A DNA stretch of 14,881 bases from Treponema sp. (GTDB lineage Bacteria > Spirochaetota > Spirochaetia > Treponematales > Breznakiellaceae): positions 1 through 14,881 of the forward strand of contig JAIRSD010000109.1 in the NCBI GenBank assembly GCA_031255615.1. Direction: 5' to 3'. Below are positions 1,335 through 14,881 of the stretch, piece after piece. A program made the position numbers and the translations under genes. Within the stretch, counting starts at the first letter, position 1. The number at the start of each line of letters is the position of its first letter. A model generated the notes under the pieces. That model had not been told where the DNA came from and ran no database searches. It saw only the letters and a list, made by a program, of their open reading frames with translations.

Positions 1335-1423
1335 TTGGGCGCATCCCCGCCTCCGGCGGGGACCGGGCTATCCGCTCTAACAAAAACCCTACGGGTTTTT
1401 ATTCCGCTTCTATCCCTTGCGCG
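1335..1423 (+). repeat. Modular hairpin repeat RepA, copy 1
   Basis: This 89-bp element runs from TTGGGCGCATCCCC to CTATCCCTTGCGCG. It contains a fixed hairpin (CCCCGCC tcc GGCGGGG), a conserved linker GGGCTATCCGCTCT, a second hairpin (AAAAACCC tac GGGTTTTT) and a conserved tail. GCGCA and TGCGC at the two ends could pair to close the structure. Copy 4 (13554-13642) is almost identical; copies 2 and 3 are inverted. It lies between two divergent genes, so it is not simply a terminator. Confidence 0.85.
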
Positions 1424-1562
1424 GGAGGAAGCCCTGCCGGTCCGGCAGGGCTTCCTCCTTCCGAGTTGCCGCGCGGTACGCGGCAACTCAAGGAATCCGC
1501 TCCCTAAAACGGAGTTTCGCGAAGCGAAACTCCGCAAAACCAAAACGCCCTGCGTTTTGGTT
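1424..1562. repeat. Hairpin array abutting RepA copy 1
   Basis: Four consecutive palindromes follow RepA. First, 1424-1458, a 17-bp perfect stem around a single central base. Second, 1463-1489, an 11-bp stem GAGTTGCCGCG. Third, 1510-1534, CGGAGTTTCGC gaa GCGAAACTCCG. Fourth, 1538-1562, AACCAAAACGC cct GCGTTTTGGTT. The third and fourth recur beside each other at 8944-9000 and 10593-10650, so they are family modules (here hairpins B and A). The linker GGAATCCGCTCC echoes the CCGCTC linkers inside RepA. ORFs across this stretch are readings through palindromes and not credible genes. From 1563 to 1645 I see only the leader of the next gene. Confidence 0.8.
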
Positions 1563-5598: not shown

Positions 5599-5905
5599 GG
5601 TTTTCGCTCCTCCTCCCACATTTTTTGTCTTCGTCCGGGGCGGCCCGCCCGGCGATTCCCCTGCTGGGAAAGCGCCGAATGTCGATTCCCCTTTGGGCGT
5701 GTTTTTTGCCGCCGTAAAAAACACGGGCTCTCAAGGCAGCCGGAGGCTGCCGGGGTTCCGGTTTCGCCTTGCGTCAGGAGATTTCCCCGGCGGCCCCGGA
5801 AAACCGCGATTTCGCGAATGTTCGCAGATTTTTATACGAAAATCCCTCGCCGCCAGTGGGATTCGCGTAATCCACGGACAATCAACGCCCTTCGCAAGGC
5901 GCTGG
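5599..5905 (-). other. copA upstream region with two hairpins, no gene
   Basis: About 300 bp without a credible gene. It contains a 10-bp inverted repeat (CGTGTTTTTT / AAAAAACACG, 5698-5725) and a 7-bp one with a three-base loop (GGCAGCC gga GGCTGCC, 5735-5751). Both would lie in the copA leader if transcription starts farther right. On the minus strand CGTATAAAAATC around 5830-5841 resembles a -10 box, but I find no matching -35. No CopY- or CueR-type operator is recognisable. Confidence 0.4.
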
Positions 5906-6114
5906 TACCTTGCTTACCCTGCATCACCGGATAAGAGCAACGGCCGGAACAGGAATTTGAACCGCGAAGGCGCACCAGGGCGAGCTGCGGCTCGCCAGGA
6001 ACACGAAGGAATGAAAAAGCGCCGCCTATCCCCGCCTTTCGTGCGCCTTCTTCGCCTTAGTGGTAAATTTCTTCCGTCCGCATATCCAACTTTTTAGGCT
6101 AAGCGGCCTGCTAA
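5906..6114 (+). repeat. Dispersed repeat R2, copy 1
   Basis: This copy aligns with 8705-8878 and 14787-14881. It begins TACCTTGCTTACCCTGCATCA and ends GCGGCCTGCTAA. The interior has complementary arms, ACCGCGAAGGCGCACC on the left and GTGCGCCTTCTTCGCC on the right, so the unit could fold into a long imperfect hairpin. This copy alone carries an extra palindrome, GGCGAGC tgcg GCTCGCC (5979-5996). Its right end overlaps the TAG stop of the DUF2318 gene by the last few bases. Confidence 0.8.
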
Positions 6115-8692: not shown

Positions 8693-8704
8693 TATGAATA
8701 CTAG

Positions 8705-8878
8705 TACCTTGCTTAGGCTGCATCACCGGATAAGCGAAACGACCGGGAATAGGAATGTTAGCCATGAAGGAATGAATATACGCCTCCAATCCCCGGTCTT
8801 CGTGCGCCTTCCTCGCCTTCGTGGTAAATTTCTTCCATACCGCGCATATCTGGTCTTTTTGGTTAAGCAGCCTGCTAA
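8705..8878 (+). repeat. Dispersed repeat R2, copy 2
   Basis: Shares with copy 1 TACCTTGCTTA..CTGCATCACC at the left, a central CTTCGTGCGCCTTC.TCGCCTT.GTGGTAAATTTCTTCC and CCTGCTAA at the right. The ends form imperfect inverted repeats (TTGCTTAGGCTGC and GCAGCCTGCTAA), giving it a MITE-like look. Compared with copy 3 it lacks about 20 bp between two GAAGG direct repeats, as expected of a slippage deletion. It starts about 150 bp upstream of the SafE fusion gene. Confidence 0.8.
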
Positions 8879-8943
8879 ATATACCGCCCCGGTCCGGCGG
8901 CTTTTTCCGGCGGGGTGCGGGCGAAAGCTGCGCCGGCAGGGAG

Positions 8944-9000
8944 GCTGAACCAAAAGGCCGCGCCTTTTGGTTCAGCGGAGTTTCGCGGAGTGAAACTCCG
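8944..9000. repeat. Hairpin modules A and B, second occurrence
   Basis: Hairpin A is GCTGAACCAAAAGGC cgc GCCTTTTGGTTCAGC (8944-8976), a perfect 15-bp stem. Hairpin B is CGGAGTTTCGC gga GTGAAACTCCG (8976-9000), with one G-T wobble. They follow a GCCGGCAGGGAGGC lead-in and are followed by GAGCGGATTCC and RepA copy 2, the same order as in the 1335-1562 cluster read on the minus strand. Confidence 0.8.
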
Positions 9001-9018
9001 TGTTTATAGAGCGGATTC

Positions 9019-9113
9019 CGCGCAAGGGATAGGAGCGGAATTCCCCGCCCCCGCAGGGGGCGGGGAATTGGAGCGGATAGCCCGGTCCCCGCCGGAGGCG
9101 GGGATGCGCCCAA
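9019..9113 (-). repeat. Modular hairpin repeat RepA, copy 2 (swapped central hairpin)
   Basis: The flanks match the other RepA copies (CGCGCAAGGGATAGGAGCGG on one side, GAGCGGATAGCCCGGTCCCCG on the other), as does the CCCCGCC/GGCGGGG hairpin. The central hairpin is different: AATTCCCCGCCCCC / GGGGGCGGGGAATT, a perfect 14-bp stem, in place of AAAAACCC / GGGTTTTT. The three-base loop (TGC on the element strand) is kept. Both arms changed together, so base pairing has been preserved while the sequence was not. Confidence 0.85.
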
Positions 9114-9396: not shown

Positions 9397-10524
9397 ATGC
9401 CGTCGCAGATTCTGCATACCCTCTTTGGGGAAGATGTGATTACCGCCATGTACCGGCGGCTGGGGCCCCGGTTTGGGCTGGTGGCGGATAAGGCGCTGGA
9501 GAAGATCCGGCGGGATTACCGGACCGCCTTCGCCCTGGGCTGCCAGGGGCCGGACATTTTTTACCACAGCCAGGGCCGGCGGCCGGTGGGGCTTGAGTAC
9601 GGGACCCTGCTGCACCGCCGGGGGGCGGGGGTTTTCACGGCGGGGCTTTTGAAGATGGGGCTGCCGGACCCGCCGCCGGATGCGGAGGATATCGCCCGGG
9701 GCCGGCGGGAAAAGGGGATCAACGCCCTGGGGGTCTATGCCCTGGGTTTTATGACCCATGCCATCCTGGACCGGGAGGCCCATCCGTATATCGTCTATAA
9801 ATCCGCAGCCCTGGGGGGGCCGGCGGGATCCGGCGGAGGGGATTCCGGCGGGGGCCGCCGCGCCCGGCACCACGCCTTTTTTGAACGGATTATCGACGTG
9901 CTGATGTTGAAGGAGCTGCGGGGGGAGGAGGCCGCTTCCTGGGACCAGGAGGCTATTCTGGCGCGGATCTGCGAGGCGCCTCCCCTGGGGCTCAAGGAAC
10001 TGGTGGCCCGGGCCCTGGTTCTGGCTTTTCCCGAGCGGGCCGGCGGGGACGGGAAGCTGATGGCCCGGATAGACAATACCTTTGCCGACTGCGCCCGGTT
10101 TTACCGGCTTACCAGCCCCCGGCGCAGCGCCCTAAAGGGGGAGGTCCTGCCGGAGGACGGGGCGGCCGTCCGGCGGGTCCTGGAATATTTGTACCCGGAA
10201 GATCTGGAGGAGGATCTGGATTTTCTGAACCTGGGGAGGGAGCCCTGGTTTTACCCGGCGGGGGACGGCGGGGAGGATCGCCGTTCCTTCCCGGATCTCT
10301 ACGCCGGGGCGGTGGACCAGGCGGCGGCGGCCATCGCCCCGGTGATCGCCCGGTATCTGGAAAGGGGAATTTTCCCCATCCGGGAGGCGGCCCAGGCCAT
10401 CGGCAACGGGGGGCTTTCCATCCAGGACCGGGAGGGCAGGCCCTGCGCCCCGACCCGCAGTTCTCCGCTGCCCCTGGACCGGGTGCTGCGGCGCCAGGGG
10501 CGGCTGCGGGGCCTGGAAGGGTAG
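9397..10524 (+). CDS. Zinc-dependent phospholipase C family protein
   Basis: A 375-residue protein with the bacterial zinc-dependent PLC (PF00882) layout. The candidate ligands are spread as expected: His7 in QILHTLFGEDV, GPDIFYH (Asp53, His57), His73 in LLHRR, MTHAILDREAHPY (His121, Asp125, His129) and HHAFFERIIDVL (His158, His159). Family enzymes hydrolyse phospholipids to diacylglycerol and a phospho-head group; many bacterial members are uncharacterised. There is no signal peptide, so unlike the secreted clostridial and Bacillus enzymes this one is probably cytoplasmic. The start at 9397 is preferred because AGGGGAG lies 6 nt upstream and conserved sequence begins there; an ORF start 54 bp upstream has no such support. 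Residues about 139-156 are a Gly/Ser/Pro-rich insertion. The gene converges on the HAD/acyltransferase/kinase operon. Confidence 0.82.
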   Translation: MPSQILHTLFGEDVITAMYRRLGPRFGLVADKALEKIRRDYRTAFALGCQGPDIFYHSQGRRPVGLEYGTLLHRRGAGVFTAGLLKMGLPDPPPDAEDIARGRREKGINALGVYALGFMTHAILDREAHPYIVYKSAALGGPAGSGGGDSGGGRRARHHAFFERIIDVLMLKELRGEEAASWDQEAILARICEAPPLGLKELVARALVLAFPERAGGDGKLMARIDNTFADCARFYRLTSPRRSALKGEVLPEDGAAVRRVLEYLYPEDLEEDLDFLNLGREPWFYPAGDGGEDRRSFPDLYAGAVDQAAAAIAPVIARYLERGIFPIREAAQAIGNGGLSIQDREGRPCAPTRSSPLPLDRVLRRQGRLRGLEG

Positions 10525-10589
10525 GGGGGCCGCGCCGGAGCTTCCCGGGGTCTCCCGCCGGCGGAGGATCCTCCGGCCCCGCCGCCGGG
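10523..10589 (-). repeat. 67-bp direct repeat, left copy (degenerate HAD gene 3' end)
   Basis: This stretch starts inside the phospholipase stop codon and is identical to 11034-11100 at all but three positions, each G here and A there. On the minus strand the right copy encodes the end of the HAD protein. The same frame here reads RRGRRILRRRETPG instead of RRGWRILRWRETLG, so two Trp codons have become Arg. It is therefore a decayed partial duplicate of the HAD 3' end. Confidence 0.85.
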
Positions 10590-10592
10590 GAT

Positions 10593-10839
10593 GCCGAATC
10601 AAAGGGCCGCGCCTTTTGATTCGGCGGAGTTTCGCTTCGCGAAACTCCGCGTTGGGGGGCCGATTCTCCGCATCGCCGCACACCGCACGGCAATGCGGAG
10701 GACGAAGCCGCGCCGGCAGGGAGGCCGGCGGGAGGGGATGCGTTTCATCGGTTTTGGCGTGGAACAGCGGCGCTTGCGGGCTGAAAATCCGCAGGGAAGC
10801 GGATTTTCAGAAGGCGCAGGCCGCGGAGCGGCTTGCGCC
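10593..10839. repeat. Hairpin array, third occurrence of modules A and B
   Basis: In order: hairpin A, GCCGAATCAAAGGGC cgc plus its complement, 15 bp with one G-T wobble (10593-10625). Hairpin B, GCGGAGTTTCGC ttc GCGAAACTCCGC, perfect (10624-10650). An interrupted stem CTCCGCAT-c-GCCG (10666-10700). CTGAAAATCCGC agggaa GCGGATTTTCAG, perfect (10781-10810). GGCGCAGGCCGC gga GCGGCTTGCGCC with one wobble (10813-10839). The lead-in GCGCCGGCAGGGAGGC seen before module A in copy 2 appears here at about 10713. ORFs over this stretch simply read through the palindromes. RepA copy 3 follows directly. Confidence 0.8.
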
Positions 10840-10928
10840 CGCGCAAGGGATAGGAGCGGAACAAAAACCCGCAGGGTTTTTGTTAGAGCGGATAGCCCGG
10901 TCCCCGCCGCAGGCGGGGATGCGCCCAA
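10840..10928 (-). repeat. Modular hairpin repeat RepA, copy 3
   Basis: An 89-bp copy in the same orientation as copy 2. Its central hairpin is the AACAAAAACCC / GGGTTTTTGTT version, here a perfect 11-bp stem with a GCA/TGC loop. The GC hairpin has loop TGC instead of TCC. It lies between the convergent phospholipase and HAD genes. The A-rich/T-rich stem could act as a bidirectional terminator here, but copies 1 and 2 are between divergent genes, so termination is not the general role. 10929-11026 shows no gene. Confidence 0.85.
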
Positions 10929-11026
10929 CCTGCACTCATTATGCGGCATCCCTCAACCGGACCGCCGGGAACGGGGCCCTGTCCGGTTTTCCTGTCAAAC
11001 ATGAAGGCGCCGCGAAGGGGGGGCTG

Positions 11027-11710
11027 TTAGGGCAGGGGGGCCGCGCCGGAGCTTCCCAGGGTCTCCCGCCAGCGGAGGATCCTCCAGCCCCGCCGCCGGG
11101 CTTCCCGCCGCAGGATCCGGTCCGGGTTGACCGCCGCGGGGTGGCCGGAGAATTCCAGCAGGGGCAGGTCCGTGTAGGAATCCGAATAGAAATGCAGGGC
11201 GCCGGGGTCTATGGAGCGTTCCTCCAGCCAGCCCTTGACGGCGGCCAGCTTTTCGGGCCCGAAGGGGGCCCTGCCGCTCAGCCGGCCCGTGGTTTTCCCC
11301 CCGGCGAATTCCGGCACGCTGGCGATGGAGCCCTCGACGGCGAAGAATTCTTCCAGGGGTTCCAGCAGGGTGCGGGGGGAGGAACTGGCGAACCAGACCG
11401 TCTCCCCCCGGCGGCGGAGCGCGGCGATGAGGCCCAGGCCCTCCCGGTACAGTCTGGCCTTGACGCGGCGTTCAAAGCAGAGCCGCGCCAGATCTTCCAG
11501 GGCCCGCCGGTCGATGCCCGCCAGCCGCTTAAAGGCTGTTTCGATGAAGTCCCCCCGTATCCGCCCGGCCTTGTAGCGCAGCCATTCAAGGGGGAGCTGC
11601 CGGAGCTGCCGGAAACTCAGGATTCCCCCCTTTAGGGCCTCGGCGAGAAAGTACCGGGACGTGGAGCCCCGCAGCAGCGTATGATCAACGTCAAAAAAAT
11701 GGACCGCCAC
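11027..11710 (-). CDS. HAD-IB family phosphatase
   Basis: A 227-residue SerB-like HAD hydrolase. Motif I is FFDVDHT (Asp7 nucleophile, Asp9), motif II is FASSSP (Ser109/110), the motif III lysine is Lys154 in FGPEKLAAV, and motif IV is YSDSYTD (Asp177, Asp181). The helical cap lies at about residues 20-90. Substrates of the class include phosphoserine and lipid phosphates. HAD-IB and PlsC domains are known to occur fused in one polypeptide in some bacteria, and here the separate PlsC gene lies 34 bp upstream in the same operon, so a phospholipid-related substrate is plausible. The start is a GTG preceded by GAGGG; no in-frame ATG fits the motif. The last about 23 codons fall in the 67-bp direct repeat. 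Confidence 0.85.
   Translation of the reverse strand: MAVHFFDVDHTLLRGSTSRYFLAEALKGGILSFRQLRQLPLEWLRYKAGRIRGDFIETAFKRLAGIDRRALEDLARLCFERRVKARLYREGLGLIAALRRRGETVWFASSSPRTLLEPLEEFFAVEGSIASVPEFAGGKTTGRLSGRAPFGPEKLAAVKGWLEERSIDPGALHFYSDSYTDLPLLEFSGHPAAVNPDRILRREARRRGWRILRWRETLGSSGAAPLP
11034..11100 (-). repeat. 67-bp direct repeat, right copy (HAD gene 3' end)
   Basis: This is the intact copy of the repeat at 10523-10589 and encodes the C-terminal RRGWRILRWRETLG region of the HAD protein. The GW...W pattern resembles normal HAD-IB C-termini, so this copy is the parent. The two copies bracket 444 bp (10590-11033) that consist largely of hairpin modules and RepA copy 3. Confidence 0.85.
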
Positions 11711-13825: not shown

Positions 13826-14389
13826 ATTTTTGATGAGAGTCCGAAGCAGTTGTAGGGGAAACCCGGCTTTCCCTGGCGGCGGAGCCGGGGAAACCGGCGT
13901 GTTTTGATACGGAGCATATACGGAGGGGGGCCTGCGATATCTTCATGTTTGCCGCTCCGCTTGAAGGCTGGAGGAGGGCCGGGACAACGGGATCGGCGGA
14001 CCCGTGCGGATGGGGCGGAACAAATAAGGCGCCTGGTGGATGAGGATTTTCCGCATGCTGAAAAGATCGTCCTGGTGATGGACAATCTGAATACCCATAC
14101 GACGGCTTCTGTGTATGAACGGTTTCCTCCGGAAGAAGCGAAACGGATAAAGGACAAACGGGAGTTGCATTACACGCCGAAGCACGGAAGCCGGCTGAAC
14201 ATGGCGGAGATAGAGATGAGCGTGATAAACCATCAGGGGCTGCCGCAACAGATACCCACGATAGAACGGATGCGGAAAGAGGCGGCGGCGTAGAAGCGGA
14301 ACCAGGAAACCTGTAAAATCAACCGGCGTTTTACCGCCGCCGACGCCCGCATCAAACTCAAACGACTCTACCCGCAGTTTGAATCGTGA
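13826..14389 (+). pseudogene. IS630-family transposase, C-terminal remnant with frameshifts and a nonsense codon
   Basis: This is the DDE catalytic part of an IS630-type transposase: IFDESPKQL (first Asp), VLVMDNLNTH (second Asp), the YTPKHGSRLNMAEIEMS box (Glu), and a tail ending in KLKRLYPQFES before TGA at 14387. It is decayed in three clear steps. A missing base in the Tyr codon after PKQL creates TAG at 13853, and the protein continues in another frame as AAEPGKPACFDTEHIRRG and MFAAPLEGW. An extra G near 13990 restores the first frame at DRRTRAD. Finally, an expected Trp codon after EAAA is TAG at 14291, with the tail still readable beyond. The N-terminal half is absent, replaced by hairpin repeats. 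Confidence 0.85.
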
Positions 14390-14396
14390 CTGACTA

Positions 14397-14442
14397 GTAG
14401 TCTCTGTATAGGGTGGCTATAGCCACCCTCTACAGAGACTAC
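14397..14442. repeat. 46-bp near-perfect palindrome, possible abutted IS630 ends
   Basis: Two 23-bp arms meet at GGCTATAGCC with one mismatch (14409 against 14430). The palindrome starts 8 bp after the IS630 transposase stop, where the right terminal inverted repeat of such an element is expected. The TATA centre equals two TA dinucleotides, and IS630 elements insert at TA. It may be the right end of one element joined to the left end of another. Confidence 0.7.
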
Positions 14443-14786: not shown

Positions 14787-14881
14787 ACCACCGGATAAGC
14801 GAAGTATCCGGGAAGAAGAATATTAACCACGAAGGCGCACCAAGGAATACGAAGGAATGAAGAAACGCTTCCAATTCCCGA
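14787..14881 (+). repeat. Dispersed repeat R2, copy 3 (cut by window edge)
   Basis: From TACCACCGGATAAGCGAA onward this matches copies 1 and 2 and continues through TTAACCACGAAGGCGCACC to the window end. It interrupts the IS30 transposase remnant. At the site where copy 1 carries a palindrome, this copy reads continuously (CACCAAGGAATACGAAGG), so it represents the empty state. Confidence 0.8.

Follow-up and report, generated by a model that had tools for sequence, protein, structure and literature searches.

The hairpin repeat at 9020..9111 of the window, the whole 14,881-nucleotide stretch of Treponema DNA analysed here, is probably a dispersed structural repeat of the Flavo-1 family rather than an ordinary small-RNA gene, with one strand folded into a Y, copies carried in part by miniature transposons (MITEs), and hairpins swapped. 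In the mechanism that we propose, the GGGATAG strand would fold into a Y. Besides its outer helix and hairpin 2, this Y would have a conserved arm that contains purine-rich internal loops and ends in hairpin 1. Copies would multiply partly as cargo of miniature transposons, recombination across the conserved boxes may exchange hairpins among copies, and some protein would read the boxes together with the Y shape, in which case only the pairing of the arms would matter.

Flavo-1 is catalogued as an sRNA, and a passage in a review places it among the most abundant small RNAs (PMC9029176). The family has the look of a repeat that is scattered through genomes and keeps its fold; if that is what it is, the annotation of its matches changes. 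A system that keeps its structure while hairpin sequence is exchanged would, moreover, make selection on the fold and the exchange itself directly testable.

Flavo-1 copies in the window

Intergenic repeats occupy four sites in the window and share a single frame when aligned on the GGGATAG strand, in agreement with the sequence-only reading, which had described four copies. The frame extends to the outer helix GCGCA/TGCGC that closes the predicted Y, and the extents of the copies are given from GCGCAA to TGCGCC.

1338..1422, minus strand: copy 1, hairpin 1 of the AAAAACCC type with a GTA loop; RF01705 match of 24.1 bits
9020..9111, plus strand: copy 2, the whole Flavo-1-type unit GCGCAA...TGCGCCC (9020-9110 to TGCGCC)
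9020..9024, plus strand: 5' arm GCGCA of the copy 2 outer helix, partner TGCGC at 9105-9109; predicted fold, 5 bp with DNA and 4 bp with RNA parameters
9026..9039, plus strand: conserved 5' box GGGATAGGAGCGGA of copy 2, from the alignment of the four copies and related genomes
9039..9069, plus strand: swapped hairpin 1 of copy 2, a 14-bp perfect stem with a GCA triloop at 9053-9055; near-identical stem in locus L113
9071..9083, plus strand: conserved 3' box GAGCGGATAGCCC of copy 2, from the alignment of the four copies and related genomes and from the core-pair analysis
9086..9104, plus strand: hairpin 2 of copy 2, TCCCCGCC-GGA-GGCGGGGA; predicted fold, differing among copies elsewhere
10841..10925, plus strand: copy 3, hairpin 1 of the AAAAACCC type with a GCA loop; RF01705 match of 24.3 bits
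13557..13641, minus strand: copy 4, hairpin 1 of the AAAAACCC type with a GCA loop; absent from the Rfam matches at E up to 1

Chance is excluded because copies 1 and 4 are 98% identical across 89 nt. Common to the four aligned copies are 'GCGCAAGGGATAG.AGCGGA', 'GAGCGGATAGCCCGG', a GC hairpin and 'TGCGCCCAA'. Hairpin 1 of copies 1, 3 and 4 is of the AAAAACCC/GGGTTTTT type with a GCA or GTA loop; in copy 2, arms 9039-9052 and 9056-9069 form a perfect 14-bp stem around GCA. This stem had been called unrelated to the others, a description that fits only its outer part, since copies 2, 3 and 4 have the same CCC-GCA-GGG at the inner end of the stem. The lower part of the stem has 8 nt in common with hairpin 2 of the same copy.

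The family, which the sequence-only reading did not recognise, is identified by Rfam covariance-model matches as Flavo-1 (RF01705). Model positions 1-76 match copy 2 at 9017-9091 (35.1 bits, E of 2.3e-4 for the window), and three of the four window copies are matched, at 35.1, 24.3 and 24.1 bits, all under the gathering threshold of 42. The conserved boxes GATNGNAGCGG ... AGCGGANAG are present in all four copies, and the pairs of the core helix covary in the family. Judged by these features, the window repeats are members of a known but poorly understood family. Rfam gives RF01705 the type 'Gene; sRNA', the family having been inferred by computation, and the entry for Flavo-1 in Weinberg et al. 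2010 reads Bacteroidetes, RNA 'y', cis-regulatory 'n' and switch 'n' (PMC2864571). Passages of PMC9769881 and PMC4383904 do not name Flavo-1.

Other repeats lie close by. Compound hairpin blocks (AACCAAAA..., CGGAGTTTCGC... palindromes) adjoin copies 1, 2 and 3 at 1506-1588, 8922-9004 and 10580-10653, and their paired arms likewise vary jointly from block to block. A near-perfect extra hairpin frequently adjoins the 5' end of the unit (L008, L066, L161 and window 1424-1460). The window also contains a second dispersed intergenic repeat (5902-6075, 8701-8836 and 14789-14880; copies 71-87% identical among the families listed) and an 89-nt direct repeat of 89% identity (10508-10596 and 11019-11107), in which the end of a HAD-like gene region recurs after the adjoining gene.

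Fold of the unit and change of its hairpins

Folding the four window copies with RNA and with DNA parameters gives the same predicted Y, one base pair apart, composed on the GGGATAG strand of the outer helix, the conserved arm with swappable hairpin 1, and swappable hairpin 2. The GGGATAG strand is predicted to be more stable than its complement in 165 of 169 copies with RNA parameters and in 168 of 169 with DNA parameters. The same strand is indicated by the mismatches within hairpins, where G-T (19) exceeds A-C (3). A looser count gives A-C 38 and G-T 14 for hairpin 1, and A-C 2 and G-T 21 for hairpin 2; the A-C excess in hairpin 1 is read as the conserved CGCA/GA internal loop being scored as mismatches. 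The strand-fold and mismatch counts, as well as those for loops, hairpin perfection and gene context below, cover all loci fetched by the time of each count.

The core helix covaries in Flavobacteriaceae, a set comprising the loci from the family of G017 (Christiangramia) together with L071, L107, L167 and L187, and three core pairs interchange GC, CG, TA or AT among its copies. Pair -1:+2 is GC in 16, CG in 8, TA in 4 and AT in 1 of the 29 distinct copies, that is, paired in 29/29, against a shuffled mean of 11.4 and maximum of 19 in a control that ignores relatedness. Pairs -2:+3 and W-W are formed in 28/29 copies each (shuffled means 13.0 and 12.9, relatedness again ignored). The mostly spirochaete set consists of the remaining loci, including some from Clostridiales Family XIII (G008) and one Christiangramia duplicate (L124); here -2:+3, -1:+2 and W-W are paired in 165, 172 and 172 of 196 copies, with shuffled means of 155.1, 156.9 and 125.8 that likewise ignore relatedness.

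Both arms change together, as had been proposed from the window copies, and the behaviour recurs in the diversity of the hairpins and in the compensatory core pairs. Perfectly paired hairpins of 6 bp or more are present as hairpin 1 in 141 of 182 distinct sequences, compared with 15 of 182 random stretches, and as hairpin 2 in 125 of 185, compared with 4 of 185; hairpin 2 also differs from copy to copy in other genomes. The copy 2 stem is no single insertion found nowhere else, since it recurs in the same frame, with two substitutions, at L113, a locus of the Treponema MAG Ct408_bin124.

Hairpin 1 differs in 11 of 26 same-flank pairs in genome G014, and one pair shown there has identical hairpin 2. 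The corresponding counts are 0/28 in G003 and 0/6 in G009; in G005 the hairpin is changed in 5/16 pairs, all five of which involve L008, four with a doubtful L008 match. A changed stem within the same flank, of the kind noted in copy 2, is thus clear in one genome. Stem families tend to go with the genome, as indicated by G110 (84% match to the window genes), in which all 7 fetched copies, of at least 12, have another stem family, AATACTTTTG....

Hairpins 1 and 2 of the same copy share at least 8 nt in 7 of 241 copies, against 16.6 with shuffled partners, and as this is below the shuffled value nothing is drawn from the 8-nt sharing in copy 2. In a permutation test on 219 copies, sharing of at least 8 nt occurs in 7 (mean 16.1) overall and 4 (5.9) within four genomes, of at least 7 nt in 24 (31.1), and of at least 6 nt in 78 (66.4) overall and 43 (42.9) within four genomes. 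These counts make neither copying of hairpin 1 from its own hairpin 2 nor avoidance of such copying secure.

Triloops make up 138 of 241 deduplicated loops, with GNA in 54 and TNC in 10; among tetraloops, GNRA occurs 6 times and UUCG 0 times. A C-G pair closes 72 of 79 GNA loops, and cGNAg is described as a stable DNA motif in a passage of PMC5815330, on which the stability point rests, as the DNA parameters of ViennaRNA give no bonus for GNA triloops. The argument for DNA applies to part of the family only, since 0 of 27 Flavobacteriaceae copies have a GNA loop. The loop type is not special to Flavo-1 either, because it is preferred as well among the long background hairpins of those loci (GNA/TNC in 57 of 115 triloops), and the excess of G-T over A-C mismatches fits RNA as well. 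For these spirochaetes only, we tentatively lean towards single-stranded DNA rather than RNA as the working form.

Placement, miniature transposons and distribution

Copies are intergenic and show no orientation preference. In gene calls from a simple gene finder of our own, 13 of 151 copies with enough flank have their midpoint inside a predicted gene, compared with 272 of 400 random positions; the other placements are tandem-same 30, tandem-opposite 32, convergent 28, divergent 17 and edge 31.

In some genomes the core is carried by miniature transposons. Flanking inverted repeats with a score of at least 11 surround 26 of 207 copies (3.3 expected), leaving 181 without, and none of the window copies has one at a score of at least 12. 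One inverted-repeat end occurs at 28 places in 6 of 11 genomes; by our reading the core is present at 23 of these places, in some cases truncated by the end of a contig, while two have a variant core, two the right part only and one no core. The variant core, GGGATTGGAGGGG..., stands within the same miniature-element frame at L243 and L247 of G001. Units in G003 with ends GGGTGCACCAATTTTTTCCG carry the core as well, and ten are complete in the fetched loci: eight of 153-155 bp, one of 250 bp and one of 411 bp. The right flank is full in seven of them; an exact 9-bp target duplication is present in five, including the 411-bp unit, one has 8 bp and one has none. G003 contains 151 ends of the GGGTGCACCAATTTTTTCCG type, and further inverted-repeat types are found in G003 and G014. 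Around the core alone, target duplications of 5-9 nt are no commoner than after shuffling (218 copies). In 19 stretches from relatives, compared for orthologous sites, a two-mismatch pattern detected no copy, and their intergenic DNA was unaligned and gave no base-level empty site. The window itself contains a partial DDE_3 transposase of 129 aa (13904-14400), and the downstream end of this fragment resembles the inverted-repeat end of a core-carrying miniature element in some relatives.

The element had been suggested to be a structured RNA, a protein-bound DNA hairpin or a landing site for mobile palindromes. Support is found for a folded strand, whether of RNA or of DNA, and for a dispersed repeat carried in part by MITEs. 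At least two copies fit the landing-site idea, L350 and L356 of G003, whose core is broken up by additional hairpin-rich sequence lying between matching ends. Tests that included PF01797 and TIGR02249 profiles over 18 genomes identified no protein that mobilises or binds the element.

The distribution of Flavo-1 is patchy, and its copy number is high in places. A pattern scan of genome contigs returned at least 120 stretches; among the 120 listed, 116 are titled Treponema, Spirochaetaceae, Spirochaetales or Spirochaetia, two Clostridiales Family XIII, one Christiangramia and one Tamlana. Across 18 genomes picked from these loci, and hence chosen because the pattern is present, the exact pattern occurs 1-32 times per genome (sums of 90 forward and 95 reverse), with 0 for the reversed-pattern control. 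RF01705 matches all 18 of these genomes, 13 over gathering, and 0 of 14 control genomes; two of the 18 have at least 150 matches each, and G009 has 86. Sampled without regard to the element, the family of G005 has RF01705 in 69 of 190 genomes, 43 over gathering, at up to 23 candidates scored per genome and under stricter filters, and the model is absent from four larger genomes of this family in which 150 candidates each were scored. In the Christiangramia family, 42 of 60 genomes have RF01705 (37 over gathering), one with at least 65 matches. The window DNA is 67-84% identical to its relatives among the matches listed. BLAST against plasmids and phages found nowhere that 80% of the query was covered, and a viral pattern scan gave two contigs. 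The 12 matches in G213 are too few to gauge replication-strand bias.

Alternative readings and known systems

Several other explanations were weighed against a dispersed repeat with a maintained fold. Flavo-1 could be a structured small RNA present in many copies, or an element within transcripts, that functions in its RNA form, as its Rfam type has it. Covariation and the preference for G-T over A-C fit RNA, and in a passage on the Flavobacterium psychrophilum transcriptome several 5' transcribed regions coincide with Flavo-1 matches; the same source, however, has matches indistinctly sense and antisense, many of them outside transcribed regions (PMC9723704). The lack of orientation preference, the mainly triloop loops of the mostly spirochaete set (GNRA 6 and UUCG 0 of 241), carriage by MITEs and the presence of at least 150 matches in two genomes also speak against this explanation, which we regard as doubtful. 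The perfect arms could instead be a by-product of template-switch (fold-back) replication that rewrites one arm, with no selection on the fold. Near-perfect arms do change as blocks, and the loop type is common to other long hairpins in the same loci. Such a process predicts no strand bias, whereas G-T 19 and A-C 3 were found, and it leaves the conserved boxes and the covarying core pairs of two groups unexplained; sharing of 7 nt or more gives no sign of copying from hairpin 2 (24/219 against 31.1), although sharing at 6 nt is above permutation (78 against 66.4). This origin is unlikely.

Mobilisation as a REP-type repeat by a Y1 (RAYT) transposase would account for dispersed intergenic hairpins, and PF01797 is matched at E 0.001 in 14 of the 18 genomes, one Y1 locus (L140 of G014) also holding a copy. 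L140 is nevertheless alone in this among 30 Y1 loci fetched (L131-L160), and PF01797 is missing from G001, G008, G009 and G016, possibly incomplete genomes, the third of which has its 86 RF01705 matches; RAYT mobilisation is not supported by this profile test in 18 genomes and is very improbable. Conserved boxes, internal loops, a variable terminal hairpin and a preferred strand are also what a folded single-strand site of an integron-type integrase would offer, attC recognition being described as structure-based and directed at one strand (PMC2727003, PMC6393395). The integron integrase TIGR02249 exceeds its cut-off in 0 of 18 genomes, its weaker matches in 18/18 recur in 14/14 controls, as general tyrosine recombinases would give, and Flavo-1 copies are dispersed; an integron-integrase site is not supported and is the least probable of these explanations. 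A more specific form of the dispersed-repeat reading can be put forward tentatively: Flavo-1 may be no sRNA but a folded single-stranded DNA site in which a protein reads the boxes and the shape rather than the hairpin sequence, which unrelated miniature transposons carry and whose copies swap entire hairpins, with an attC-like logic outside the recombination systems tested.

The window repeat has the same boxes and core helix as Flavo-1 RNA (RF01705), whose 76-position model comprises the hairpin-1 arm only; the outer helix and hairpin 2 of the window unit fall outside it. As in MITEs of DDE transposons (for example of the IS630 type), units in some genomes have terminal inverted repeats, in one genome with 9-bp duplications. 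What differs from MITEs is that a single core is carried by differing inverted repeats and that the core alone lacks duplications. REP repeats with RAYT are likewise dispersed intergenic hairpins in both orientations, but a Y1 transposase match is missing in 4 of 18 Flavo-1 genomes. The resemblance to integron attC sites lies in the way of working, with fixed boxes, internal loops, a variable terminal hairpin and one strand, whereas the 18 Flavo-1 genomes contain no integron integrase over cut-off.
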